Shown piece by piece: positions 1-35,961 of a stretch of 35,961 nucleotides of DNA. Every line of letters begins with the position of its first letter. The first letter of the stretch is position 1. The DNA is taken from positions 1 through 35,961 of the IMG/VR virus record IMGVR_UViG_3300005527_000145. One strand, written 5' to 3'. The translations under genes and the position numbers were made by a program. This stretch comes from a virus. The notes below the pieces were generated by a model. That model had not been told where the DNA came from and searched no databases. It saw nothing but the letters and a program-made list of their open reading frames with translations.

Positions 1-690
1 CCTTACCGGATAATCTTTATGTTGGGGGAAATTTGGAGTTAGATGGAATACCAATTCAATACTTAGGGAATAATATTCATGTTAAGGGAAATTTGGAGTT
101 AGATGGAATACCAATTCAATACTTAGGGAATAATATTCATGTTGGGGGAAATTTGTATTTATATGGAACACAAATTCAATCCTTAGGGGATAATCTTCAT
201 GTTGGGGGAAATTTGGATTTATATGGAACACCAATTCAATCCTTACCGGATAATCTTCGTGTTGGGGGATGGTTGGATTTAAAAAGAGCACCAATTCAAT
301 CCTTACCGGATAATCTTCATGTTGGGGGAGATTTGTTTTTAAGTAAAACACCAATTCAATCCTTACCGAATAATCTTCATGTTGGGGGAAGTTTGTATTT
401 ACAAGGAACACCAATTCAATCCTTACCGGATAATCTTTATGTTGGGAGAAATTTGGATTTAAGAGGAACACCAATTCAATCCTTACCGGATAATCTTCGT
501 GTTGGGGGAGATTTGTGGTTAAATGGAACACCAATTAAATCCTTAGGGGATAATCTTTATGTTGGGGGAAGTTTGTGGTTAAATGGAACACCAATTCAAT
601 ACTTACCGGATAATCTTCATGTTGAGGGAAGTTTGGATTTAAGAGGAACACCAATTCAATCCTTACCGGATAATCTTCATGTTCCAAAAA
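1..690 (+). repeat. 60-bp tandem repeat array, about 11 units plus a degenerate one
   Basis: Units of exactly 60 bp follow each other from base 1, each with the core ccttaccggataatctt followed by gttggggga. Differences are mostly single bases. Because the period is a multiple of three, unit gain or loss keeps the reading frame. The same unit recurs at about 30382-30505 and, inverted, at about 35430-35894. Confidence 0.95.
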
Positions 691-779
691 TTATTTTAAT
701 TAAAACCACGCCATTAAGTGATAATTATGAATTGGTTCAGACATATAGTGAAAAATATAAAATTAATAGTACTTTTTAA
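1..779 (+). CDS. Leucine-rich solenoid repeat protein, 5' end missing
   Basis: The reading frame is open from base 3, so the gene begins before the window; the TTG at 33 is only the first possible start codon inside it. The visible part is eleven 20-residue units with consensus L-P-D-N-L-x-V-G-G-x-L-x-L-x-G-T-P-I-Q-S, encoded by near-identical 60-bp units, then a diverged last unit and a charged tail ending at 779. The spacing of hydrophobic residues resembles the 20-residue leucine-rich repeats of YopM/IpaH-type effectors, so a curved solenoid is expected, but its ligand is unknown. By analogy with the related gene at 30180, the missing N-terminus may carry an LTESDL tag (inference). No signal peptide or membrane segment is visible. 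The next gene starts 10 nt downstream on the same strand. Fold class is fairly sure; function is unknown. Confidence 0.8.
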   Translation, partial: LPDNLYVGGNLELDGIPIQYLGNNIHVKGNLELDGIPIQYLGNNIHVGGNLYLYGTQIQSLGDNLHVGGNLDLYGTPIQSLPDNLRVGGWLDLKRAPIQSLPDNLHVGGDLFLSKTPIQSLPNNLHVGGSLYLQGTPIQSLPDNLYVGRNLDLRGTPIQSLPDNLRVGGDLWLNGTPIKSLGDNLYVGGSLWLNGTPIQYLPDNLHVEGSLDLRGTPIQSLPDNLHVPKIILIKTTPLSDNYELVQTYSEKYKINSTF

Positions 780-12050: not shown

Positions 12051-13628
12051 ATGGAATTTTCTTTTTTCACAACAGATAATAAATCGGGTTATAAAACAAG
12101 AGAAGGTTGGTTTTCTAAAAATCATCCAGAAGTTTATGATGAAATTATTAGTTATTCTTCTAAAATAGATTTAAACCTTTCTTTCAAAGAAAAAATTTGG
12201 TTTTATTTTAACCAATTATCTGAAAGACCAAAATGTGTAACATGTTCTAAAGAACTTAAATTTAGAGAACGATTCGATAATCCATACGGAGAATTTTGTT
12301 CATTAATTTGTATTAATACAAATAAAGATGAAATGCTTAAACGACAAAAAAATACCTTCAATGAAAAGTATGGAATTGATTTTTATCCTCAACACCAAGA
12401 CTTTGTAAAGAAACAAAAACAAACAAAATTAGAACGTTATGGTGATGAAAATTTTGTTAATGCTGAAAAAATGCTAAAAACAAAATTATTAAAATATGGT
12501 AGAGAAAATATTAGTAACTCTAAAAAATATAAAGAAACATGTATTAAAAAATACGGTATAGATAATTTTGCAAAAACAACTGAATTTAAAAACAAAATTC
12601 ATCAAAAATATAGAGATTTATATCCAAATTATAATATAATCAATATTGATGGTACACAATTAACTGTTTTTTGTGAAAAATGTGGTGATAATTATGAAAT
12701 TCATAAACAAGTTTTTTATGAAAGAATTCGTGATAACAATATTGTCTGCACAAATTGTAATAAACTTGGTCAATGTTTCATTTCAAGCAAGGAACAAGAA
12801 ATTAATGATTTTGTAAGAAGTTTAAATATTGAAACAATTCAAACATTTAAAACAAAAGACAAAACTGAAATCGACATTTTTGTACCATCAAAAAACTTAG
12901 GGATTGAGTTAAATGGTGTTTATTGGCACAACGAACTCTTTAAAGATAAGAATTTTCATTTAAGCAAAACAAAAAGTGCTGAAAATGATGGAATTGAATT
13001 GCTTCACATATTTGAGGATGAATGGAATGGTAAAAAAGAAATTGTTAAATCTATAATTAAAAATAGATTAGGATTAGTTGATGAAAAAATCTATGCTAGA
13101 AAATGTTACATAAAAGAATTAACCTCAAAGGTTACTAGTGATTTTTTAAATGAAAATCATATTCAAGGTGAAACTAAATCATTAGTAAAATTAGGTTTAT
13201 TTAATGGTGAAAAATTAGTTTCAATTATGACCTTTTCAAAAGGTAGAATTATAATGGGTGGAAAAGACGATGAATGGGAGTTGGTTAGATTTTGTAATAT
13301 TTTAAATACAAATGTTATCGGAGCGGCATCAAAATTATTAAATTATTTTATAAAAAACTATAATCCAAAGAAAATTGTGTCTTATTCAGATATTAGACTT
13401 TTTAATGGTAGTTTATATGAAAAAATAGGATTTACAAGAATATCACAATCACCACCAAGTTATTGGTATGTTATTAATGGTATTAGGCATTATCGTTTTA
13501 ATTTTAGGAAATCCATTTTAATTAAAGAAGGTTTTGATTCAAATAAAACAGAACATCAAATAATGTTAGATAGGAGTATCTATAGAATTTATGACTGTGG
13601 TGCGATAAGATGGGAATTAAACTATTGA
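12051..13628 (+). CDS. Homing endonuclease, Vsr-like/EDxHD type with acyltransferase-like C-terminus
   Basis: 525 residues. Residues about 58-90 and 205-240 carry C-x2-C pairs (including C-V-T-C, C-E-K-C and C-T-N-C) that look like two zinc knuckles. Between them four copies of a K-Y-G-x-x-N/D repeat of about 20 residues form a likely DNA-recognition array. Residues about 270-330 hold the nuclease core: 'EIDIFVPSKNLGIELNG', then 'VYWHNE' and 'LLHIFEDEW', as in Vsr-like homing enzymes of the I-Bth0305I group. The C-terminal 170 residues ('KLGLFNGEKLVSIMTFSKGR', 'WELVRFCN', 'YSDIRLFNGSLYEKIGF') look like a GNAT-type fold. The gene sits alone between the tube and gp26-like genes. Family from pattern memory; good confidence that it is an endonuclease. 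Confidence 0.75.
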   Translation: MEFSFFTTDNKSGYKTREGWFSKNHPEVYDEIISYSSKIDLNLSFKEKIWFYFNQLSERPKCVTCSKELKFRERFDNPYGEFCSLICINTNKDEMLKRQKNTFNEKYGIDFYPQHQDFVKKQKQTKLERYGDENFVNAEKMLKTKLLKYGRENISNSKKYKETCIKKYGIDNFAKTTEFKNKIHQKYRDLYPNYNIINIDGTQLTVFCEKCGDNYEIHKQVFYERIRDNNIVCTNCNKLGQCFISSKEQEINDFVRSLNIETIQTFKTKDKTEIDIFVPSKNLGIELNGVYWHNELFKDKNFHLSKTKSAENDGIELLHIFEDEWNGKKEIVKSIIKNRLGLVDEKIYARKCYIKELTSKVTSDFLNENHIQGETKSLVKLGLFNGEKLVSIMTFSKGRIIMGGKDDEWELVRFCNILNTNVIGAASKLLNYFIKNYNPKKIVSYSDIRLFNGSLYEKIGFTRISQSPPSYWYVINGIRHYRFNFRKSILIKEGFDSNKTEHQIMLDRSIYRIYDCGAIRWELNY

Positions 13629-21894: not shown

Positions 21895-24800
21895 CGAAAA
21901 AATATTAGTTGAGGTTGATTATGACAATATTGTTTTAATTGACCCAAATAAAGTAATTGGTGATAATGGAAAATCGCAAGAACGACTTGTTAAGCAAGAA
22001 GATTTAGTTATGTATGCAAATCTTGAAGCTATTTTTGTTCCTCGCACAAAATTTAATATAGGTTCCGCCCAAGACGATACGGTTCAACCAGTAACAATAG
22101 CAACAAATAATTTCGGCGCAATAAATTTTTTAAATCCCGGAAATGAAGGTTTTTTTACAACAGAATGGTCTGATGAAATTACGGGTAAAGATACTTTAAA
22201 AAATGAAGGTACAAATCAAATAAGACAGGTAATTGATACAAATAGTGCTTTTTATTTAAAACAAAAAATCGATAATGTTAAAGATACACAAACGTTAGGT
22301 ATAACTAACATTCTTGTTGATAATAACGCATCTCAAACACCTGTGGTTACAATAGATTTGGTCGATGTTGGTGGAAGAACCCTTTTTGAAAAAGGTGACG
22401 AATCCCCATATTCTGTATTTTTTAATTTACCATATCCAACATTCTATTTAACATTAAAAGGTTATTTTGGAAAAGCAATCAGATATCAGTTGATTTTAGC
22501 TAAATTCACATCTGAATTAGATTCACAAAATGGTAATTTTACTGTTAGATTAACTTTTTATTCATATAAGTATACAATATTAGCTGATTTACAAATAGGT
22601 TCTGTTTTGGCGTTACCAAACATGTATAATACAACTTATACGTTAATACCAACAACCGAAACCAACCAAAATTCAGATGCAGCAAGAATTTCTGTTGGAC
22701 AAACAGATAAGCCGGTAACAAATGTTGTTGTTGGTAAAGGCTATCAAAAAATAAGAGAATTATATTCTGAGTATAAAAGCAAGGACTTAATACCTGAAGA
22801 TTTTCCTGAATTATCGATACCACAATTAGTGGTTAAACTTGAAAATTTTGAAAGAAATATAATAGCACAATTAGGCACCGAAAAATTTGATTCATTTACC
22901 GACATTAAAAATTATAAAGAAGGTATTAAAAACCTACAAACTAAAGTATTCTCAACAAATCTTGAAGCTTGGTCCAGAAAATATTTGGATTTGGAAAATT
23001 ACTATATTTTAATCAAACTAAAAACAAATGACCCAGAAGTAAGAGCTTATAGATATAAAAAAGAAATTAGTAGTGATTTACAAAAAATTGAAAATGCTAA
23101 AGCCGAACTAACTAAATTAATAGAAGAATTAAAAGAAGTTTGGACAAAAAATAGCACATTAGGCCCAAATGGAACGTATACTATTAATGGTAAAACAATA
23201 GAATCACAAATTAATTTTAACCTAAATGTTGATTTAATAAATAAAAATATTAGTGATAACCAAATTGATTGGTGTGAAACCTATAGAAGAAAATTTGGGC
23301 GACAGATAAATGAAAAATGTAAAGAAAGTGTTATAGAAAATTATGGTGATTTTTCTAGCACAATATATATTGAAAATAGTACAGAAATAGTAATTAATAA
23401 TATATTTGTTTTTAATGGTGAAAATTCCTTCAATAAGGAAATTAATCAAATGATAACCAAAGCAAATAATATTGAAGAACAAATTGAAAAAGAATTAACC
23501 GCAATTTTACAAAAAAAATTAGAATCTGCTGAAGGTTTAGGTTTTAAGCCAACAATTAGAAATATTTTTGCAATTATATTTGCATCGGTAGAAGGTATTT
23601 TTAGGTTACTTGATGATGTTCATAAAGATGCTTTTGATCAGAGATATAGTAGAGTTAGATACGATGCTTTATTTTCCGATGGTAAAGACGATGTTAGCTC
23701 TGATTCAACAGATTTAGTATCAAAAACTCAAGAACCAAATCAAACTAACGGTGATATTCAGGTATATCCTTGGCCTGAGTTTTTTATAAAAACAGAAACT
23801 GAGAATAAAATTAGTTTTCCTTTAGCTTATCCGGCTGATCCTGAACTAATTGAAAAAACACAAGCAGATAATTACGATATTTGGCCTGAAGTTGAATTTG
23901 TTGAAGAAATGATAAAAGGTCTTACACAGAGAGATGTTGTGTTCAATACTTCCGATGTTACTTCAGACGAAGAATATAGTGTAAATAGATTATCACTTAA
24001 TGCAATTGAATTTCCAACAACAAATAGGTCTTATGGTCCAAAAGAATTTGTTAAATTCTTTTATGAAATAAAAGAAAGATTAATTGTAGCTTCAACAATT
24101 GATAAACTTAACAGAAATTATAAGCAAACGAATGATATAACTGAGGTTATTGCTCAAATGGAGGCGTATAATATACTTACATCATTAAGTGTAGATAATC
24201 CTCAGATTATTACCGCATTAAAGAATTTTAAGATAGATAATCAAGAAAATTTTGATGCTTATTTGAAACAAATATCAAATGAAGGTATTGGTGAAAGCTG
24301 GCAATTATATATTAGAGGTTTATATAGCACACCATATTTAAGAGAATTAACAGAACAAACAAAAGATTTTAATATATTACCCAGCGATATAATTTCAGGT
24401 CCATCACCAAATTCTGAAGTTGAAAGTATTAACAAATTAGTTATGTTTTTAAATCAGGATTCAAATGTTATTGATTTTACCGATATATATCCGATAGTAA
24501 ATCTTGAATGGGCAAGACAAAATTTGGCAAATGGTTCCGGATTAGGTTCAATAACTAATTTAACTAAAACATCTTCTGTTATTGGGTTTAATTCAGAAAA
24601 AAAACATATTACTAATTTTAACACTAATGAAAATGACAAAATAAAAAGACCATTAACAAGTTTTTCTTTTACATTACAGACACCGCCAAACACATATAAC
24701 AACTCAATTGAACTAAATACTTTTTATCAAAATAGATATAATAATTATAATAATTTATTACCAACCGAAGGACTTATAACATATGAAAATTCTCCACCTA

Positions 24801-28302: not shown

Positions 28303-28527
28303 ATGAACATTCAATCAGCTTTAGATAGTTATTTAAACAAAAAGACAAGAATTACCCAAAAAGATATGGGTAATGGTTACAATGAAGTTTGTGATTTAGA
28401 CACAGGCGATTGCTATACAGTTAGAATGAAAGACGGTCTAATTGAAAGAATTGACAACACTATGAGTGTAAATAAAAGAGTTCAAGTTGAAACACCTTCA
28501 GGTATTAAACAATTATTAAATGGTTAA
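28303..28527 (+). CDS. Hypothetical 74-residue protein
   Basis: Starts at an ATG 26 nt after the hub gene, behind its own TATTTATA element. It has 'QSALDSYLNKKTRITQ', then 'YNEVCDLDTGDCYTVRMKDG', where two cysteines eight residues apart flank an acidic D-T-G-D turn, and ends 'VETPSGIKQLLNG'. It looks like a small alpha-then-beta protein. The stop overlaps the next gene's start by eight bases. Expression with late genes suggests a minor virion or assembly protein, but I do not recognise it. Confidence 0.65.
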   Translation: MNIQSALDSYLNKKTRITQKDMGNGYNEVCDLDTGDCYTVRMKDGLIERIDNTMSVNKRVQVETPSGIKQLLNG

Positions 28528-29167
28528 TAAAATGAAAATGGACGATAGAATCTTAAATGAATTAAAAAGACATAATTCAATAAATAAATATATCTTTGAA
28601 CAAGATGTTACAATTCCTCCCCCAGAAGGAGAAGAAATTCCACCCGCTCCAGAAGCTATACCGGATGCTACAATTCCATCGTCACCAATAACAGCAGAAC
28701 CAACTCCTGTTGTTCCTGAAACAGACCCTGAAGTTGAAAAAATTGATGCTAGTGGAGCATCAGAAGAACAAACTTCAAGCACAGAAGAATTGGATATTAC
28801 CGATTTGGTAACGTCACAAAAAAATGTAGAACAAAAACAAGAAGAATATTTCAAGAATTTATTTTCACAATTGGAAACATTGCAAACCAAACTTTCAGAA
28901 ATGGATGGAATTGTTGGTAAATTAAATGATATTGAACAGAAAATTGAAAAATATCGTCAAAAAACACCCCAAGAAAAACTTGAATTAAGAAGTTTGGATA
29001 GCGGTCCTTACACACAAAAATTATCCGATTTCTTCACCGACAAAGAGAGTGAAATGGAAGCATCTGGAAAAAATGAATATGTTTTAACATCTGATGAAGT
29101 AACAGATTTTACACCAAATGAAATTAAAAACACATTTATTCCACCGACAGAAGACGAAACAATTTAA
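28520..29167 (+). CDS. Proline-rich acidic coiled-coil protein, probable virion or assembly protein
   Basis: 215 residues. The first 28 residues are basic and helical ('DRILNELKRHNSINKYIFEQ'). Residues about 30-90 are rich in Pro, Glu, Ala and Thr, giving a flexible linker. Residues about 95-145 form a coiled coil ('NLFSQLETLQTKLSEMDGIV' and what follows). The C-terminus is acidic with 'DSGPYTQKLSDFFTDKESEM' and P-P-T-E-D-E-T-I. Low complexity plus a coiled coil is common in scaffold, whisker or baseplate-associated proteins; here the function is unknown. It overlaps the previous gene by eight bases. An intrinsic terminator follows. Confidence 0.65.
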   Translation: MVNKMKMDDRILNELKRHNSINKYIFEQDVTIPPPEGEEIPPAPEAIPDATIPSSPITAEPTPVVPETDPEVEKIDASGASEEQTSSTEELDITDLVTSQKNVEQKQEEYFKNLFSQLETLQTKLSEMDGIVGKLNDIEQKIEKYRQKTPQEKLELRSLDSGPYTQKLSDFFTDKESEMEASGKNEYVLTSDEVTDFTPNEIKNTFIPPTEDETI

Positions 29168-30164: not shown

Positions 30165-30168
30165 ATGA

Positions 30169-30176
30169 TATTTATG
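30169..30176 (+). promoter_or_regulatory. TATTTATG element before the solenoid gene
   Basis: TATTTATG in tgatatttatggttatg, three bases before the ATG at 30180, the same short distance as at 31990 and 10541. It may drive a leaderless message. Confidence 0.45.
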
Positions 30177-30179
30177 GTT

Positions 30180-30896
30180 ATGAAAAAGATTAAATTAACA
30201 GAATCAGATTTATATAGGATTGTTAGAAAGGTTCTTCTTGAGCAAGAGGAAGAAAATAACAGAAGAATTTTTAATGAGAATCCAGAATATTTTAAAACGA
30301 TTCTTAAAAATGTATTTAAAAATGATTCTAAGAAATTAACAAGGTTTTTTAATAAACAATACGATAAGGTTATTATTAATGGAAGTTTGAATTTAGAAGG
30401 AGCACCAATTCAATCCTTACCGGATAATCTTTATGTTGGGGAAAATTTGTATTTAAGTGAAACACCAATTCAATCCTTACCGGATAATCTTTATGTTGGG
30501 GGGGAGTTAGATTTATCTTATTGTGAAGAAATTGAAACTTTACCTGAAACTCTTGAAGTTAAGGGTAATATTGATTTATCCTATTCGTCAATAAAATATT
30601 TACCCGATAACTTTAAAGTACCAAAAAACCTATTTTTAGATTATTCTAAATTAGAACATTTACCGGATAATCTCACGGTTGGAAATAATTTAATAGTAAG
30701 GAGCACACTTATAACAAAACTACCAAATAATTTAAAAGTTGGTGGTAAATTAAATATCCGCAATACAGAGGTGGAAGAATTACCTGATGATTTAGAAGTA
30801 AAATCTCTTATTTTAATAGATTTTACACCATTGTCTTATAACTTAGATTTACAAAAGAAATACAAGGAAAAAGGTTTTATACTATATACCAATTAA
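30180..30896 (+). CDS. LTESDL-tagged leucine-rich solenoid protein
   Basis: 238 residues from the ATG at 30180; a start at 30165 would add five residues, but the 30180 start gives an N-terminus matching the protein at 35269. Residues 1-20 read M-K-K-I-K-L-T-E-S-D-L-Y-R-I-V-R-K-V-L-L, the same tag seen at 35269. A helical linker with 'RFFNKQYDKVIINGS' follows, then about eight 20-21-residue units. The first two are almost identical in DNA to the arrays at the window ends; the rest have diverged ('TLPETLEVKGNIDLSYSS', 'DLEVKSLILIDFTPLS'). A solenoid effector or virion-associated protein is plausible. It lies between gp32 and uvsX. Confidence 0.8.
   Translation: MKKIKLTESDLYRIVRKVLLEQEEENNRRIFNENPEYFKTILKNVFKNDSKKLTRFFNKQYDKVIINGSLNLEGAPIQSLPDNLYVGENLYLSETPIQSLPDNLYVGGELDLSYCEEIETLPETLEVKGNIDLSYSSIKYLPDNFKVPKNLFLDYSKLEHLPDNLTVGNNLIVRSTLITKLPNNLKVGGKLNIRNTEVEELPDDLEVKSLILIDFTPLSYNLDLQKKYKEKGFILYTN
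30382..30505 (+). repeat. Two 60-bp units shared with the arrays at both window ends
   Basis: Two consecutive copies of the same 60-bp unit, both with ccaattcaatccttaccgg and taatctttatgttggg. Later units of the gene have drifted, so these two copies probably arrived or were homogenised recently. Confidence 0.85.
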
Positions 30897-30931
30897 ATTA
30901 TCTTATCACAATATGTTGTTTTTTATTGGTT

Positions 30932-30952
30932 TTTTCTTATATTTTAAGAAAA
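30932..30952. promoter_or_regulatory. Palindrome TTTTCTTA-TATTT-TAAGAAAA before uvsX
   Basis: Eight-base perfect arms (30932-30939 and 30945-30952) separated by TATTT, ending nine bases before the uvsX ATG. It could be an operator or an RNA hairpin near the start of uvsX. Function unproven. Confidence 0.45.
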
Positions 30953-30961
30953 TCTAATAAT

Positions 30962-31954
30962 ATGGCACTTAAGAAAAAAGAAATTACATTAGCGGATATT
31001 AAGAATAAATTTTCGACCAAAACAAAATATAAGGAAACCCAGTTTTATAATTGTGGTGAAGCGTTTTTGGATGCTTGTGGTTTACCGGGACCGGTGATGG
31101 GTTCTATAAATTTGTTTATGGGTCATTCAGACACGTCAAAATCGACAGCAATGATTTTATCTGCGGTTGATGCACAAAGTAAGGGTCATTTACCCGTATT
31201 TATTATTACGGAGAAGAAATTCAGTTGGGAACATGCTATTGAATTGGGGTTGGACGCACAATTAGATTCAGATGGTTCTTATGTTGGTCAATTTATTTAT
31301 AATGATTCATTTGATTATGTTGAACAAGCAACCGATTATATTAATTCATTATTAGATGCACAAGAAAAGGGGGAGTTACCGTACAATCTATTATTTTGTT
31401 TCGACAGTATTGGTTCAATTCCTTGTTTGGCAACATACGAAGGAAAGGGTGGCGGCATGCATACGGCTAAGGTATTGGCGGATAAGATTGGCATGGGACT
31501 TCATTCTAGAATTACTAAATCTAGAAAAGAAGAATATCCGTATATAAATACTATGGTTGTAATCAACCAAGTTTGGATTGAAATTCCAGATAATCCATAT
31601 AGTCAACCTGTAGCAAAACCTAAAGGTGGGGAAGCTTTATTTTTTTCGGCAGCATTAGTATTTTTATTTGGTAATCATAAAAATTCTGGTGTATCGCACA
31701 TTACTGCGACAAAAAATGGTAGAACGGTATCATTTGCTACAAGAACTAAGATATCAATATTAAAGAATCACATTAATGGTATATCGTTTAAAGATGGTAA
31801 AATTATCGCAGTACCTCAAGGGTATATTAAAGACGATAAAGCAGACATTGATAAATATAAAAAGCAATATTCACAATATTGGAATAAAATATTAGGTGGT
31901 GGTGATGATGATATTAATTTAGAAGAAGGTAAAGATGAATTATTTGAATCATAA
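30962..31954 (+). CDS. uvsX: UvsX-like recombinase (RecA family)
   Basis: 330 residues from the ATG at 30962; a TTG at 30926 would add 12 residues unlike the family. Residues 54-62 are the Walker A loop G-H-S-D-T-S-K-S-T, residue E84 in 'IITEKKFSWEHA' sits where RecA's catalytic glutamate lies, and 'LLFCFDS' (143-149) is Walker B. 'KPKGGEALFFSAALVFLFG' follows as a C-terminal core strand, and the tail is acidic. UvsX pairs and exchanges DNA strands in recombination-dependent replication, together with gp32, encoded upstream. It is shorter than T4 UvsX (391). The gene belongs to an operon-like stretch ahead of two endonucleases. Assignment is secure. Confidence 0.93.
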   Translation: MALKKKEITLADIKNKFSTKTKYKETQFYNCGEAFLDACGLPGPVMGSINLFMGHSDTSKSTAMILSAVDAQSKGHLPVFIITEKKFSWEHAIELGLDAQLDSDGSYVGQFIYNDSFDYVEQATDYINSLLDAQEKGELPYNLLFCFDSIGSIPCLATYEGKGGGMHTAKVLADKIGMGLHSRITKSRKEEYPYINTMVVINQVWIEIPDNPYSQPVAKPKGGEALFFSAALVFLFGNHKNSGVSHITATKNGRTVSFATRTKISILKNHINGISFKDGKIIAVPQGYIKDDKADIDKYKKQYSQYWNKILGGGDDDINLEEGKDELFES

Positions 31955-31989
31955 TTTGTTAATAATAACAACTTTTTATAAAATCTAGA

Positions 31990-31997
31990 TATTTATT
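31990..31997 (+). promoter_or_regulatory. TATTTATT element before the ribbon-helix-helix gene
   Basis: TATTTATT (context tagatatttattaatatg), three bases before the ATG at 32001. No other start exists in this small frame, so a leaderless message is the simplest reading if the element is a promoter. Confidence 0.45.
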
Positions 31998-32000
31998 AAT

Positions 32001-32159
32001 ATGGGAAGAAAGAAAATAACTAACGAAGAAAAAAAACAAAGTATTTCTATTGCTCTGAAACCGGAGTTATTAGAATATTTTCGCGGACTCCATATTAATC
32101 TTTCTTCTCTAATAAATAAATTATTAGAGGATTATAAAAATGGAAAAGAAAATATGTAA
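32001..32159 (+). CDS. Small ribbon-helix-helix-like protein
   Basis: 52 residues from ATG 32001 to TAA 32157-32159. A basic N-terminus 'MGRKKITNEEKK' leads into a strand 'SISIALKPELLEYFRGL' and a second helix 'LSSLINKLLEDYKNG'. Strand-helix-helix with a K-P-E-L turn is typical of ribbon-helix-helix DNA-binding dimers. It overlaps the downstream endonuclease gene by 20 bases. Its size and layout match the minus-strand gene at 2335-2493, so the phage may encode a small family of such regulators, one linked to endonucleases. Its target is unknown. Confidence 0.6.
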   Translation: MGRKKITNEEKKQSISIALKPELLEYFRGLHINLSSLINKLLEDYKNGKENM

Positions 32160-33174
32160 TAAATGTGGAATCGAAGCTCTTATATCGAACCAAGGAAAAG
32201 GTTTTTGTGAGACTTGTCGAGTTTTGGACATTAAAGAACAACGAAGTCGTAAATATTTTGAAAAAAAAGAGCAAGAGAGGTTAGAGTTATTTTATAGGGA
32301 TTGTCCGATTTGTGGGAAAGTAATAACCTATAAAACAAGTAATGGATGTTATAAAGCTAATAAAAAAAACACATCTTGTTTGACTTGTTGTAAAATGGGC
32401 GAAAAAAATCCTTTTTATGGTAAAATCCATACCGCTGAAAGTATGGATAGAATGAAGAAGACCACACTAGAAAGTGAAAAAAGAAAAGACTTTTGGAAAA
32501 GACAACAAACACAAGAATTTAGAGATAAATTAAGTGAAACTTTAAAGATAAGACAACCAAATAAAGGTAAGGGTTATTATAAAGCGTGGATTAGAGATTA
32601 TGGGTTAGAAGTTGCAAACCAAATGGTAAAAGAATTTGGTGATAGAATATCTAAAACAGCTAAAGGTAAACGCTTAGGGATACCACCAAAACACGGGATT
32701 GCATGTGGTAACGGATGGTCTGGTTGGTATAAAGAATATTTCTTTAGAAGTGTTGGTGAGTTAAGTTTTATAATAAATGTGATTGAGAGATTTGGATTTA
32801 ATGCGATTTCGGCTGAAAGTCAGAAATATAAAGTGCGTTATTTTATAGATGGTTTTGAAAGAAATTATTTTCCGGACTTTGTTTTAAATGATAAGTACGT
32901 AGTTGAATGTAAACCAAAAAAATTACAAGAAATACCTCATAATAAAATTAAGTTTGATGCCGCTAAATTAAAATTCAAAGAAGATGGTTTAATCTTTAAG
33001 GTTGTTGACATTCCAATTATTGATTTTAATCTATTATTAGATTTACATGATAAGGATTTAATAAAATTTTCTAAAAAAACAAATGAAAAATTTATGGTAT
33101 ACGTTGAAAAGAAAAAAGATATTAAATCTTTTATTGATAAAATATCTCAGAATATTACTAAACCTTTAACTTAA
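32140..33174 (+). CDS. Free-standing endonuclease with zinc fingers, NUMOD3 motif and PD-(D/E)xK core
   Basis: 344 residues. Cysteine pairs (C-N-K-C, C-E-T-C, C-P-I-C, C-L-T-C) in the first 85 residues look like two zinc ribbons. 'GEKNPFYGKIHTAESMDRMK' at about 86-105 is a NUMOD3-type DNA-binding motif found in homing endonucleases. The C-terminal part has 'FRSVGELSFIINVIERFGF', then 'YFPDFVLND' and 'YVVECKPKK', the E ... P-D ... E-x-K arrangement of PD-(D/E)xK nucleases. It follows uvsX and the small ribbon-helix-helix gene, and precedes an HNH gene, so this is a mobile-endonuclease cluster beside a recombination gene. Domain calls by pattern; fairly confident. Confidence 0.75.
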   Translation: MEKKICNKCGIEALISNQGKGFCETCRVLDIKEQRSRKYFEKKEQERLELFYRDCPICGKVITYKTSNGCYKANKKNTSCLTCCKMGEKNPFYGKIHTAESMDRMKKTTLESEKRKDFWKRQQTQEFRDKLSETLKIRQPNKGKGYYKAWIRDYGLEVANQMVKEFGDRISKTAKGKRLGIPPKHGIACGNGWSGWYKEYFFRSVGELSFIINVIERFGFNAISAESQKYKVRYFIDGFERNYFPDFVLNDKYVVECKPKKLQEIPHNKIKFDAAKLKFKEDGLIFKVVDIPIIDFNLLLDLHDKDLIKFSKKTNEKFMVYVEKKKDIKSFIDKISQNITKPLT

Positions 33175-33178
33175 TAAA

Positions 33179-33952
33179 ATGATTCTAAATTATAAAAAAC
33201 CGCAACCACTTAATTTAGATTCTGTGGTCTTCGTACCAATAAGAAAATGTCGAAAATGTGCTGAGATTAAACCGTATTCAGAATTTAGAAAAGAAAAAAA
33301 TAGAAAATTTGGTATTAGACATATATGTAAAGAATGTAATAACATTAGAATAAAAAAATTGAGAGAAAAAAATCCTGAAAAAGTAAGAGAACATGAGAAA
33401 AAATGGAGAGAAAAAAATCCTGAAAAAGTAAAGGAAAAAAATAAAAGATGGATGAAAAAAAATCCTGAAAAAGCAAAGGAAAAGAATAAAATATGGAGAG
33501 AAAAAAATCCTGAAAAAAGAAATCTAATAAATAGAAGATATTTAAATAAAAATTTAAATCAAATTATGGAAAGACGTAAAAAAAGAATGGATAAAAACCC
33601 CGAATATAAACTAAGAATACTTATGTCATATAGATTAAGTAAAATGTTTAAACAAAAAAAACTAGCAAAAAATAGCAAAACTCTAGAAATATTAGGAACA
33701 TCATTTAATAATTTTAAATGTTATCTAGAATCTCAATTTAATGACGGAATGACATGGGAAAATCATGGTAAGGTGTGGCAAATTGATCATAAGGTACCGG
33801 TATCATATGGAAAAAATGAAGAGGAAATATGTAAGCTAAATCATTATACAAATCTTCAACCACTATTCACCTTAGAAAACCAAAAAAAAAGCGATAAACT
33901 CCTCCCAGAACACGAAGAGTTATATAAAAAGCTATTAAATAGAGAGTTATAA
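33179..33952 (+). CDS. HNH endonuclease with tandem basic repeats
   Basis: 257 residues, starting four bases after the previous stop. Residues about 20-60 carry C-R-K-C and C-K-E-C zinc-ribbon pairs. Residues about 60-120 are four copies of a 15-residue unit around R-E-K-N-P-E-K-V-K-E-K-N-K-x-W, from 45-bp DNA repeats. The HNH core near the C-terminus reads 'VWQIDHKVPVSYGKNE', 'LNHYTNLQPLFTLENQKKSD'. HNH enzymes cut DNA with a metal held by His and Asn. Its lysine-rich repeats probably add DNA affinity. The gene may be mobile, perhaps spreading with its neighbour. Assignment of the HNH domain is firm; its target is unknown. Confidence 0.8.
   Translation: MILNYKKPQPLNLDSVVFVPIRKCRKCAEIKPYSEFRKEKNRKFGIRHICKECNNIRIKKLREKNPEKVREHEKKWREKNPEKVKEKNKRWMKKNPEKAKEKNKIWREKNPEKRNLINRRYLNKNLNQIMERRKKRMDKNPEYKLRILMSYRLSKMFKQKKLAKNSKTLEILGTSFNNFKCYLESQFNDGMTWENHGKVWQIDHKVPVSYGKNEEEICKLNHYTNLQPLFTLENQKKSDKLLPEHEELYKKLLNREL
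33361..33520 (+). repeat. 45-bp tandem repeats in the HNH gene
   Basis: The sequence aatcctgaaaaa begins at 33371, 33416, 33461 and 33506, an exact 45-bp period. Each unit encodes 15 lysine-rich residues. The in-frame period allows expansion without frameshift. Confidence 0.9.
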
Positions 33953-33979
33953 TTTTCAAAAAACAAAAAACAAAAAAAC

Positions 33980-34600
33980 ATGAAAATACTCGAATTATTC
34001 GCAGGAAGTCGTTCATTCTCAAAGGTAGCAGAAGAACTTGGTCATCAAACATTTTCAGTTGACTGGGGACCATATGAGAATATTGATTTAAAAATGGACA
34101 TTAAAGAAATGACCATTAATCATGTTCCTTTTGTACCAGATGTTATTTGGTGTTCACCTGATTGCACAACTTATTCAATCGCAGCAATTAGCACACACAG
34201 AAATGGTACAGAACCAAAAAGCGAATATGCAAAAGAATGTGATTTAACAAATCAGCATTTTATTTCTTTAATCAAAGAATGGTTAGTAATTAATCCAAAC
34301 TTAATCTTCTTTATAGAAAATCCAAGAGGAATGCTAAGAAAGATGCCATTTATGCAAGAATTTAAGCGACATACTACTTGGTATTGCAAGTATGATGATG
34401 AAAGAGCCAAACCCACAGATATTTGGACAAATTCAACAACTTGGATACCAAGACCGGTTTGTAAAAATGGTAATAAAGAATGTCATCACCAACCAGCACC
34501 AAGGGGTTCAAAAACTGGAACGCAAGGTAGAGGTAATTCGTATGAGAGAAGTAAAATTCCTTATGAATTATGTTTAGAAATACTTAATAGCATACAATAA
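33980..34600 (+). CDS. DNA cytosine-C5 methyltransferase-like protein with altered catalytic motif
   Basis: 206 residues, shorter than typical C5 methyltransferases. Residues 3-10 ('ILELFAGS') are motif I, binding S-adenosylmethionine, and 'VDWGP' is motif II/III. Motif IV, normally P-P-C-Q-x-F-S with the catalytic cysteine, appears as C-S-P-D-C-T-T-Y-S (58-66), so Cys62 keeps a similar position but the context differs. 'FFIENPRGMLRKMP' (110-123) is motif VI with E-N-P replacing E-N-V. The C-terminus has 'QGRGNSYERSKIPYEL'. It may methylate, hydroxymethylate or bind cytosine in phage or host DNA; this cannot be decided from sequence. It precedes a small gene by one base, and follows the HNH gene with 27 nt A-rich leader. 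Confidence 0.75.
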   Translation: MKILELFAGSRSFSKVAEELGHQTFSVDWGPYENIDLKMDIKEMTINHVPFVPDVIWCSPDCTTYSIAAISTHRNGTEPKSEYAKECDLTNQHFISLIKEWLVINPNLIFFIENPRGMLRKMPFMQEFKRHTTWYCKYDDERAKPTDIWTNSTTWIPRPVCKNGNKECHHQPAPRGSKTGTQGRGNSYERSKIPYELCLEILNSIQ

Positions 34601-34601
34601 C

Positions 34602-34799
34602 ATGAAACTCTATATTCACGAAGGACCGGGACATTGTGTTGGTAGTGTTGTTATCGTGGTTTCAGATAATTATGAAACCGCATATGAAATCATTTCAAAA
34701 CGACTGGATGATATGGGATTAAACAAAGAGAATATTTCAATTATAGAAAAAGAAATAATCAATAACGAGATTGTTTTTTCAAAAAGTGGTGATTATTAA
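34602..34799 (+). CDS. Hypothetical small protein
   Basis: 65 residues starting one base after the previous stop. 'GPGHCVGSVVIVVSDNYETA' and a helix 'YEIISKRLDDMGLNKENISI' suggest a small alpha/beta domain, ending S-K-S-G-D-Y. Its last bases form one copy of a 22-bp direct repeat (34781-34802). The stop overlaps the end of the minus-strand gene that begins at 35269. Function unknown. Confidence 0.65.
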   Translation: MKLYIHEGPGHCVGSVVIVVSDNYETAYEIISKRLDDMGLNKENISIIEKEIINNEIVFSKSGDY

Positions 34800-34802
34800 T
34801 CT
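34781..34802. repeat. 22-bp direct repeat, copy 1 (AAAAAGTGGTGATTATTAAT+CT)
   Basis: Identical to 35313-35334. It covers the end of the 65-residue gene and the last codons of the minus-strand LTESDL gene. Confidence 0.9.
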
Positions 34803-35269
34803 GGAAAATTAAAAAATAATAGGTAAACATCACCATCTCTAAAATCATCTGAAATTATTACACCATCCATTTCTTCCCAATTTTTTTTACTTAATCTATC
34901 AAATTTTGTAATAATTAAAGGTCTTTCTTCACCCCATTTTGTGGTAATAATTGTATTACCTTCATCATCAATTCCAGTTTTACCTCTTAACATGAAAGGT
35001 ATTGGATAATCCATATACATTGACCCGTTTTCATAACCTTCATCTTTTAAATATTTTCTTGCGTTACCAATTGCGTCAAAGGTTTCTGTTGCGGTGAAAA
35101 ATTTACTATAAACAATTACCCTATCACTTATTGCATAAACACCATTAATATTTGGAAAAACTTCACCAACCTTTTTACCAATAATATCATAAGCTGTTTC
35201 ATCTTCTTTAAGAACTCGTTTAACTAAATTAATTAAGTCAGATTCCGTTAATCTTATTATTTTTTTCAT
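34796..35269 (-). CDS. LTESDL-tagged protein of unknown function
   Basis: 157 residues from ATG 35269 to TAA 34796. The first 20 residues M-K-K-I-I-R-L-T-E-S-D-L-I-N-L-V-K-R-V-L match the tag of the solenoid protein at 30180; an acidic residue pair E-D-E-T follows. The body has 'VYAISDRVIVYSKFFTATET', 'IGNARKYLKDEGYENGSMYM' and 'FRDGDVYLLFFNFPD' and looks like a mixed alpha/beta globular domain, not a repeat. A TATTTACA element lies 15 nt upstream on its strand. It is flanked by 22-bp direct repeats, suggesting it was inserted as a cassette. Function unknown; the tag is the only recognisable part. Confidence 0.75.
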   Translation of the reverse strand: MKKIIRLTESDLINLVKRVLKEDETAYDIIGKKVGEVFPNINGVYAISDRVIVYSKFFTATETFDAIGNARKYLKDEGYENGSMYMDYPIPFMLRGKTGIDDEGNTIITTKWGEERPLIITKFDRLSKKNWEEMDGVIISDDFRDGDVYLLFFNFPD

Positions 35270-35312: not shown

Positions 35313-35334
35313 AAAAAGTGGTGATTATTAATCT
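35313..35334. repeat. 22-bp direct repeat, copy 2
   Basis: Identical to 34781-34802. It lies at the 3' end of the minus-strand solenoid gene, whose stop codon is within it, just as the stop of the LTESDL gene is within copy 1. Confidence 0.9.
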
Positions 35335-35961
35335 CTACTAATTCTATATTTTTCTTCATATTTCGCAACCAATTCATCATTATCTTTTAATGGTGTTTCA
35401 CGAATATAAATTATCCCATTAACATAAAGATTATCCCCTAAGGATTTAATTGGTGTTCCATTTAACCACAAATCTCCCCCAACACGAAGATTATCCGGTA
35501 AGGATTGAATTGGTGTTTCAGTTAAATCCAACCTTCCCTCAACATGAAGATTATCCGGTAAGGATTGAATTGGTGTTCCTCGTAAATACAAACTTCCCCC
35601 AACATGAAGATTATCCGGTAAGGATTGAATTTGCGTTCCTTCTAAATCCAAATTTCCCTTAACGTCAAGATTATCCGGTAAGGATTGAATTGGTGTTCCA
35701 TTTAACCACAAACTTCCCCCAACACGAAGATTATCCGGTAAGGATTGAATTTGTGTTCTTTGTAAATACAAACTTCCCCCAACACGAAGATTATCCGGTA
35801 AGGATTTAAGATTTTTGCATCCATATAAATTCAAATATCCCTCAACATGAAGATTATCCGGTAAGGATTGAATTTGTGTTTTTTCTAAATCCAAACCCCC
35901 ATTAACAACAATCTCATCATATTTGTTATTAAGATGTTTAACAAATCTTTCACCTGATGAT
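35328..35961 (-). CDS. Leucine-rich solenoid protein, 5' end beyond window
   Basis: The frame is open to the window edge (first complete codon 35960), so the protein is incomplete at its N-terminus. The visible upstream part 'RFVKHLNNKYDEIVVNGGLD' matches the linker of the protein at 30180, so an LTESDL tag probably lies just outside (inference). Then come about nine 20-residue solenoid units, one of them 21 residues ('LYGCKNLKSLPDNL'), ending 'KDNDELVAKYEEKYRISRD'. The last segment resembles the end of the gene at 1-779. It ends inside the 22-bp repeat. Family assignment is firm; function unknown. Confidence 0.8.
   Translation of the reverse strand, partial: SSGERFVKHLNNKYDEIVVNGGLDLEKTQIQSLPDNLHVEGYLNLYGCKNLKSLPDNLRVGGSLYLQRTQIQSLPDNLRVGGSLWLNGTPIQSLPDNLDVKGNLDLEGTQIQSLPDNLHVGGSLYLRGTPIQSLPDNLHVEGRLDLTETPIQSLPDNLRVGGDLWLNGTPIKSLGDNLYVNGIIYIRETPLKDNDELVAKYEEKYRISRD
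35430..35894 (-). repeat. 60-bp tandem repeat array, about eight units
   Basis: Same 60-bp unit as at 1-690 but on the opposite strand, with one 63-bp unit near 35821. The two end arrays form inverted repeats about 35 kb apart. Confidence 0.9.

Follow-up and report, generated by a model that had tools for sequence, protein, structure and literature searches.

A shared N-terminal leader as a probable capsid-targeting propeptide in large T4-like phages

The LTESDL tag in the window and beyond

The window analysed here is a stretch of 35,961 bp, positions 1-35,961 of the uncultured virus record IMGVR_UViG_3300005527_000145. It holds tail genes (sheath, tube, baseplate hub and gp25/wedge-like), a gene for SSB and a weak RecA match, together with the two complete genes that are our subject: one for a leucine-rich-repeat (LRR) protein at 30180 (+), beginning MKKIKLTESDLYRIVRKVLLEQEEE, and one for a 157-aa protein at 35269 (-), beginning MKKIIRLTESDLINLVKRVLKEDE. 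Both proteins open with the same leader, the LTESDL tag, whose consensus in the window is MKKI-[RK]LTESDLxxIVKRVIxE. A first-pass annotation of the window had noticed near-identical N-termini on unrelated bodies, and this is what we find: the two tags have 59% identity across 22 residues, and the best blastp match between the two proteins has an E of 0.079, at 31% across 36 aa. We propose, with a probability of about 0.6 and on the evidence of sequence, that in a clade of large T4-like phages, whose hosts are probably Bacteroidota, the tag serves as a capsid-targeting propeptide, which would load its cargo into the head and then be shed. The window is 100% identical to positions 116761-152721 of G021, a 256-kb IMG/VR phage contig, and its tagged genes are laid out as follows (here and below, a slash marks a cut or its proposed place):

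30180..30245, +: tag (LTESDL) on the LRR protein; 22 codons, MKK...LLEQ, with LLE/Q as the proposed cut
30246..30896, +: linker and leucine-rich-repeat body of the same protein (whole protein 238 aa)
30168..30175, +: ATATTTAT element, 12 nt 5′ of the tag ATG, closer than at most genes (-20 to -24)
35204..35269, -: tag (LTESDL) on the 157-aa protein; 22 codons, with LKE/D as the proposed cut
34796..35203, -: body of the tagged 157-aa protein, no family assigned
35328..35960, -: right-edge LRR gene, truncated by the window; tag outside, at G021:152778-152846
3..779, +: C-terminal part of the left-edge LRR gene (G021:116400-117539); tag outside, at G021:116421-116489

Since G021 shows that the LRR genes at both edges are tagged, four tagged genes touch the window. 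The right-edge gene, in which the first-pass annotation had noticed only the linker that follows the tag, does belong to the set, as its complete copy in G021 opens with the tag MKKIKLTESDLYRIIKQVLFEQEEEK. For the LRR gene at 30180 there is an alternative in-frame ATG at 30165; the start at 30180 is favoured because the tag Met is the first Met in frame in the paralogues at G021 623, 91118 and 116400.

A seven-row tag profile, two rows of which are the window's own, finds 15 tagged places in G021 at E ≤ 1: nine tag-first LRR genes, one open reading frame (ORF) with an internal tag before an LRR domain (63443-65134), and five other bodies, in one of which the tag is again internal to a long ORF (67557-68423). 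With a 20-position profile made from 105 unique tags of other contigs, 15 of the 297 gene-like ORFs of G021 score at least 10 and the runner-up scores -3.5, so the tag occurs there more often than chance allows. The ten tagged LRR genes or domains are of the LPDNL type, differ greatly in repeat number and are dispersed over the phage genome; at 221577, one more LRR gene starts with a leader that is short and diverged.

The tag is by no means confined to G021. A pattern scan of IMG/VR gave at least 599 matches; among the matches listed, 419 were confirmed and 80 loci were kept, yielding 173 candidate tagged ORFs, 116 without near-copies and 110 clear ones. Part of positions 3-12 was fixed by the scan pattern, so that conservation there is partly a matter of selection. 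Over all loci there are 132 non-redundant tagged proteins with a median length of 144 aa (a few cut from internal tags), whose bodies fall into 110 clusters at blastp E ≤ 1e-3, 99 of them singletons. The earlier suggestion of a modular leader defining a set of proteins thus holds, and the common descent of whole proteins, which would have undone it, fails on the same count. Codon differences between tags are also almost as great as those between bodies. At identical tag residues, codon identity over all pairs of the 132 is 0.566, against 0.500 expected from body codon usage, while the protein sequence is retained; inside one locus it rises to 0.633 against the same expectation. The tag is therefore maintained as protein, with some recent duplication.

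The 24 records of at least 100 kb that were chosen for the tag bear two to 14 tags each at E ≤ 0.01, several of these records being near-duplicates as judged from identical spacing of the matches. When relatives were instead sought through the tail sheath (20 records searched, of 80 loci), the tag was matched at E ≤ 1 in ten. Four of these records had supplied profile rows, which leaves independent matches in six of 16 relatives, one of them weak (E 0.007). The tag consensus gave no match in INPHARED phages or PLSDB plasmids, where short queries are weak. Whole-record profile searches found no tag in Mel-JY01, RM378, immuto or LR756511 and one weak match (E 0.0045) in LR756508. In 84,980 bacterial and archaeal genomes, a strict DNA pattern, which as an exact pattern misses diverged tags, matched three stretches. 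Two lie in QCKH01000009.1 (L264, L265), a contig filed under a Prochlorococcus single cell that holds tagged genes and a Bacteroidota-like signal peptide and is probably a stray phage contig. The third is a 53-residue tagged ORF (L266:2169-2327, SYAL01000047.1) with ATATTTATAAATA upstream, in a contig of a Bacteroidota metagenome-assembled genome that also has a DNA polymerase I-like gene; it is either what remains of a phage in a chromosome or the product of a mixed assembly. Literature searches, over titles and abstract starts among the matches listed, gave no paper on the LTESDL tag.

The end of the tag and the head machinery

In the logo of 110 tags, positions 1-20 are conserved except for 11 and 19, and conservation falls sharply beyond. 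The Glu of position 20, which lies outside the scan pattern, has a relative entropy of 3.5 bits; the two residues that follow have 1.9 and 0.66, and positions 23-40 have 0.07-0.37. Position 20 is Glu in 108 of the 110 (Asp and Leu once each), 98 tags end in [IL]xE, and the residue following the Glu is Q in 51, N in 24, S in 11, E in seven and D in five. In T4, the gp21 protease cleaves after L/I-X-E, the leaders of the internal proteins (IPs) being 10-19 residues long, and when position 10 of the IPIII leader is Asp, processing is inhibited while targeting is still allowed (PMC9026906). The internal proteins of T-even phages are highly diverse, with the capsid-targeting sequence (CTS) alone conserved (PMC3012670). 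Both of these traits, a conserved N-terminal leader on divergent mature parts and an [IL]xE motif where leader meets body, are found in the tagged proteins.

The tag helix is amphipathic, its hydrophobic moment of 0.60 being equalled by 2.2% of shuffles. In the AlphaFold2 model of the LRR protein (mean pLDDT 88), the tag is a separate helix, residues 8-20, modelled with low confidence (pLDDT about 57) and followed by a linker and a confident body. A terminal amphipathic helix, typically of 18 residues, with a disordered linker to the cargo is likewise the design of the encapsulation peptides of bacterial microcompartments, such as PduP (PMC12339742). Those serve bacterial organelles, not virions, and the likeness is one of analogy only.

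The tagged phages carry T4-type head machinery. G021 encodes a gp21-like protease of family S77 (PF03420, E 4.6e-23) and a gp23-like capsid protein (PF07068), with the gene for an acidic scaffold-like protein lying between these two; it also has matches to the T4 portal and terminase. S77 is present in 19 of the 24 tag-bearing records, among them all eight of at least 240 kb; some of the records are near-duplicates. The portal ORF of G021 (52547-55699) has 1050 aa against about 600 in relatives, with an insert that looks intein- or HNH-type. In another record, G036 (268,739 bp; loci L242 and L243), there are two S77/scaffold/capsid clusters that differ from each other (about 31 kb and 233 kb): the neighbours of one are immuto-like, and the other resembles that of the window phage. 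This record is either a genome with two heads or a chimaeric contig.

The same motif recurs in the head proteins. Sixteen protease regions were fetched, of which 15 hold the capsid gene. An N-terminal LINE/[AS] site is present in 13 of the 15 capsid proteins, the others having LLNE/S (G045) and LVTE/T (G036a), and in a MAFFT alignment it coincides with FLTE/A at Glu 65 of T4 gp23, which we take to be the known gp23 cut site. The scaffold has three [IL]xE sites in 16 of 16, with V, S and S as the next residues. In 11 of the 16 it also has [IL]xE at the N-terminus, where Q comes next in eight. A protein encoded next to the capsid gene, carrying a PWVNICRK domain that is presumably DUF5872, occurs at G021 63443-65134 and in L243, L244, L245, L248, L249, L252 and L254-L257. 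As judged by eye over ten ORFs, its leaders vary in length and sequence and then reach [IL]xE in all ten ([IL]NE in seven), after which comes a common start, e.g., VTSTSTGSRGSY, ATGSGSSGR or ASTTSTVGG, resembling the capsid protein beyond its site. Its C-terminus has a tag-like helix, ESLxxLIKxxL (also by eye), and in G021 this is the tag, followed by the LRR domain. The N-terminal helix of the scaffold, EEISELVKESLNE/Q, was considered as a mimic of the second half of the tag and rejected in a profile scan.

Tagged and head genes also have an upstream element in common. Of 130 tagged genes, 90 have ATATTTAT or TATTTATA in the 120 nt upstream, 60 of them at -30..-15. The element precedes p55724 in 14 of 14 cases (-25..-12) and the protease gene in 13 of 16 (-28..-19), as well as the scaffold gene in 12 of 16 and the portal gene in 11 of 16, where the spacing is wider; the figures are one of 15 for the capsid gene, none of 15 for p56505 and none of 12 for p57714. 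For background, 194 of 5,312 windows of this length, largely coding, contain it. In G021, G041 and G026, among genes with an upstream gap of at least 40 nt, the element at -32..-14 is found in 11 of 23 tagged, eight of 25 head and tail, none of seven replication and 53 of 314 other genes (tagged versus other, p 0.001; versus replication, p 0.03; versus head and tail, p 0.38). Where the gap is smaller, the counts are three of 10, six of 33, two of 13 and 50 of 500. RNA mapping in lake phages indicates that the capsid gene and its upstream gene, and the protease gene and its downstream gene, are perhaps co-transcribed, late (PMC9723584), and the lack of an element before the capsid gene and p57714 fits that suggestion. 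The T4 late promoter TATAAATA was rejected as the shared element, being within 80 nt of only 14 of 131 tagged genes. In the LRR copies of G021, ATATTTATGGTT stands immediately 5′ of the ATG.

The host is likely a member of Bacteroidota, because a bS21 ORF lies on the reverse strand amid the head genes in 11 of 15 loci, as in large freshwater Bacteroidetes phages, whose terminase, portal, protease and capsid genes surround a reverse-strand bS21 (PMC9723584). Eight of eight candidate sequences tested match PF01165 (Ribosomal_S21), whereas an ORF picked by pattern in L250 does not; in G021, only 71 nt separate the genes that flank bS21 in other loci. The capsid gene being mostly without its own element is a further likeness to those phages, as their RNA mapping would predict, and the portion of that paper available makes no mention of the tag. 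By capsid protein, the cultured relatives are Mel-JY01, immuto and RM378.

Because of the [IL]xE junction, the S77 protease, the sites in head proteins and the upstream element, packing into the virion and targeting by a protease, which the first-pass annotation had offered as separate roles of a sorting signal, combine into one T4-like scheme that the sequences suggest. The 22-residue amphipathic helix would bind a component of the prohead core and thus recruit the attached protein into the prohead. The S77 (gp21-type) head protease would then cut after the conserved Glu of [IL]xE, a site that is read directly in the sequence. If T4 is a guide, the freed cargo, which is very diverse and includes LRR proteins, would remain in the head with the DNA and be ejected into the next host.

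Cargo bodies and other leaders

Nearly all of the tagged cargo is without a domain match. Against Pfam (E ≤ 1e-3), the 132 proteins give eight families, with PG_binding_1 in two proteins and YkuD, Tlde1_dom, annexin and others once each; against PHROGs they give 12 families of at most two members, seven named endolysin and one terminase (E 7e-4). The two complete tagged proteins of the window match nothing in either collection. A fold search with the LRR model returned LRR domains and no functional hint, the TM-score by query length being below 0.5 in 49 of the best 50 of 132 matches. For the 157-aa protein, AlphaFold2 reached a pLDDT of 36.7 from a four-sequence alignment in which one sequence was identical to the query, and the model was discarded.

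LTESDL may not be the only leader of its kind. A second one, about ITEEEKxRILxMHxSATKxQYLxE and unlike LTESDL in sequence, opens 11 non-redundant unrelated proteins; [ILV]xE occurs at residues 18-45 in all 11, followed, as judged by eye, by Q in seven. Short leaders of about IKRILRE/E are seen on genes with ATATTTAT or TATTTATA at G041 3810, 5589 and 9159, G026 32690, and G021 33794 and 250875. The carriers of the second leader, and a window gene with yet another, are:

G021 22908-23477, -; L268, L218, L249, L251, L255 and others: ITEEEK-type leader
28520..29167, +: Pro/Glu-rich protein without a Pfam family at E ≤ 0.001; its leader is a different one, ending NKYIFE/QD, and G041 and G026 have similar starts

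The base rate of the motif was taken from 649 non-tagged genes, in which [IL]xE ends at residues 8-32 in 251 and at 58-82 in 204. In the non-tagged genes of three genomes, the density of [IL]xEQ at residues 10-38 is 2.6 times that beyond residue 60 (28 of 20,280 versus 91 of 171,686 positions, p 6e-5), the Pro/Glu-rich window protein being one of the 28; with A, S or G as the next residue the ratio is 2.9, 2.0 or 0.5. It is tempting to propose an open-ended head-cargo system in which unrelated leaders (LTESDL, ITEEEK and IKRILREE) converge on one protease site, each phage having in its head up to 15 or more pre-made proteins that can be exchanged; we give this extension even odds.

The window also has endonuclease-like genes at 12051-13628, 32140-33174 and 33179-33952 (homing/HNH, a weak one, and endonuclease VII-like), one amid the tail genes and two near the recombinase.

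Competing explanations and significance

The tag resembles T4 CTSs in being an N-terminal leader on otherwise divergent proteins that ends in L/I-x-E, in genomes that have a T4-type protease and a capsid protein whose propeptide site aligns with that of T4. It differs in its length of about 22 residues, in an unrelated sequence, in the mostly Q or N residue after the cut, and in the number of carriers, with up to 15 tagged proteins detected per genome. By analogy, the tag would function like a T4 CTS, whereas descent from one finds no support. The head propeptides of SPN3US and phiKZ offer another likeness, as these too are large phages with many head proteins cleaved after the Glu of a short motif; their rule differs, AXE in SPN3US, as for gp245 (PMC10052503), and S/A-X-E in phiKZ, and so does their lineage.

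Several observations weigh against the proposal that the tag is a capsid-targeting propeptide. The tag has no sequence similarity to T4 CTSs, profile A2 giving a single nine-residue match (E 0.09) in the T4 record, and the residue after the cut is mostly Q or N, as against A or S at the capsid site in 13 of 15. The tag-like N-terminus of the scaffold ranks only 63rd of 297 ORFs, which is not significant, and the two internal tags of G021 are not leaders of their ORFs. In non-tagged genes, [IL]xE is 1.4-fold more common N-terminally than internally for any next residue. The upstream element is unspecific: among the 314 other genes that have an upstream gap, 53 carry it. Its spacing differs in portal and scaffold genes, and in G021 alone it precedes just three of 13 tagged genes. 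S77 was not found in five of the 24 tag-bearing records (107-200 kb); nor was gp23 matched there by the model that found it in G021 and G001, which does not prove its absence. Two tagged records, G002 and G003 (223 and 129 kb), likewise match neither S77 nor gp23. The S77-less records look like fragments without head genes. The association with S77 may merely mirror one phage lineage, several records being near-duplicates. Lastly, the Flavobacterium phage immuto, the closest of the cultured relatives in which S77 and gp23 are annotated, lacks the tag in a profile search; the similar starts that the first-pass annotation mentioned for Bacteroidota-phage proteins are thus found in uncultured phages and not in this cultured one.

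An alternative is that, within infected cells, the helix acts as a docking motif for a single phage or host protein, for instance in a transcription, replication or ribosome complex, the tagged proteins being takeover proteins with no role in the virion. A short amphipathic helix on a flexible link is typical of docking motifs, and the diversity of the cargo suits takeover proteins. We consider this unlikely, since it leaves unexplained the near-invariant Glu exactly where conservation stops, the similar [ILV]xE end of an unrelated leader, and the upstream element common with head genes. The tag might otherwise stay uncleaved and dock decoration proteins on the tail or the outer face of the capsid, with the LRRs as surface binders in the manner of T4 Hoc. 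LRR bodies of varying repeat number would suit surface binding, and the common upstream element of tagged and head genes is in keeping with it. However, a dock on the outside needs no head-protease motif at the end of the tag, and most of the non-LRR bodies show neither a relation to one another nor a known domain, so this idea appears quite improbable.

Export or membrane association, the third role offered for the sorting signal, finds little support. PG_binding_1 and YkuD are envelope-acting domains, but the logo of 110 tags, read directly, shows charged residues between hydrophobic ones, no long hydrophobic core or lipobox and no Cys, and the ordinary signal peptide on the tagged contig L264 (MKKILLIMGLFITQITFSQS) looks different; a signal of this type is very improbable. 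That the shared 5′ end is an unselected by-product of duplication or recombination, as the close LRR paralogues of G021 and the codon excess inside loci might suggest, is scarcely credible, being largely refuted by the all-pair codon test and by bodies that are mostly unrelated.

Few cargo proteins of the T4 head are known, among them IPI, an inhibitor of a host restriction enzyme, and Alt, an ADP-ribosyltransferase (PMC9026906). If the tag is a capsid-targeting propeptide, one short motif would list a large catalogue of uncharacterised cargo from phages of aquatic bacteria, and the delivery of such cargo into the host would become directly testable. The tag would also offer a leader, ready for use, with which proteins of choice could be loaded into heads of this type. 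On the wider reading of an open-ended head-cargo system, the leader of these large, widespread and uncultured phages, probably of Bacteroidota, would reveal, from sequence alone, hundreds of unknown proteins that phages deliver to their hosts.

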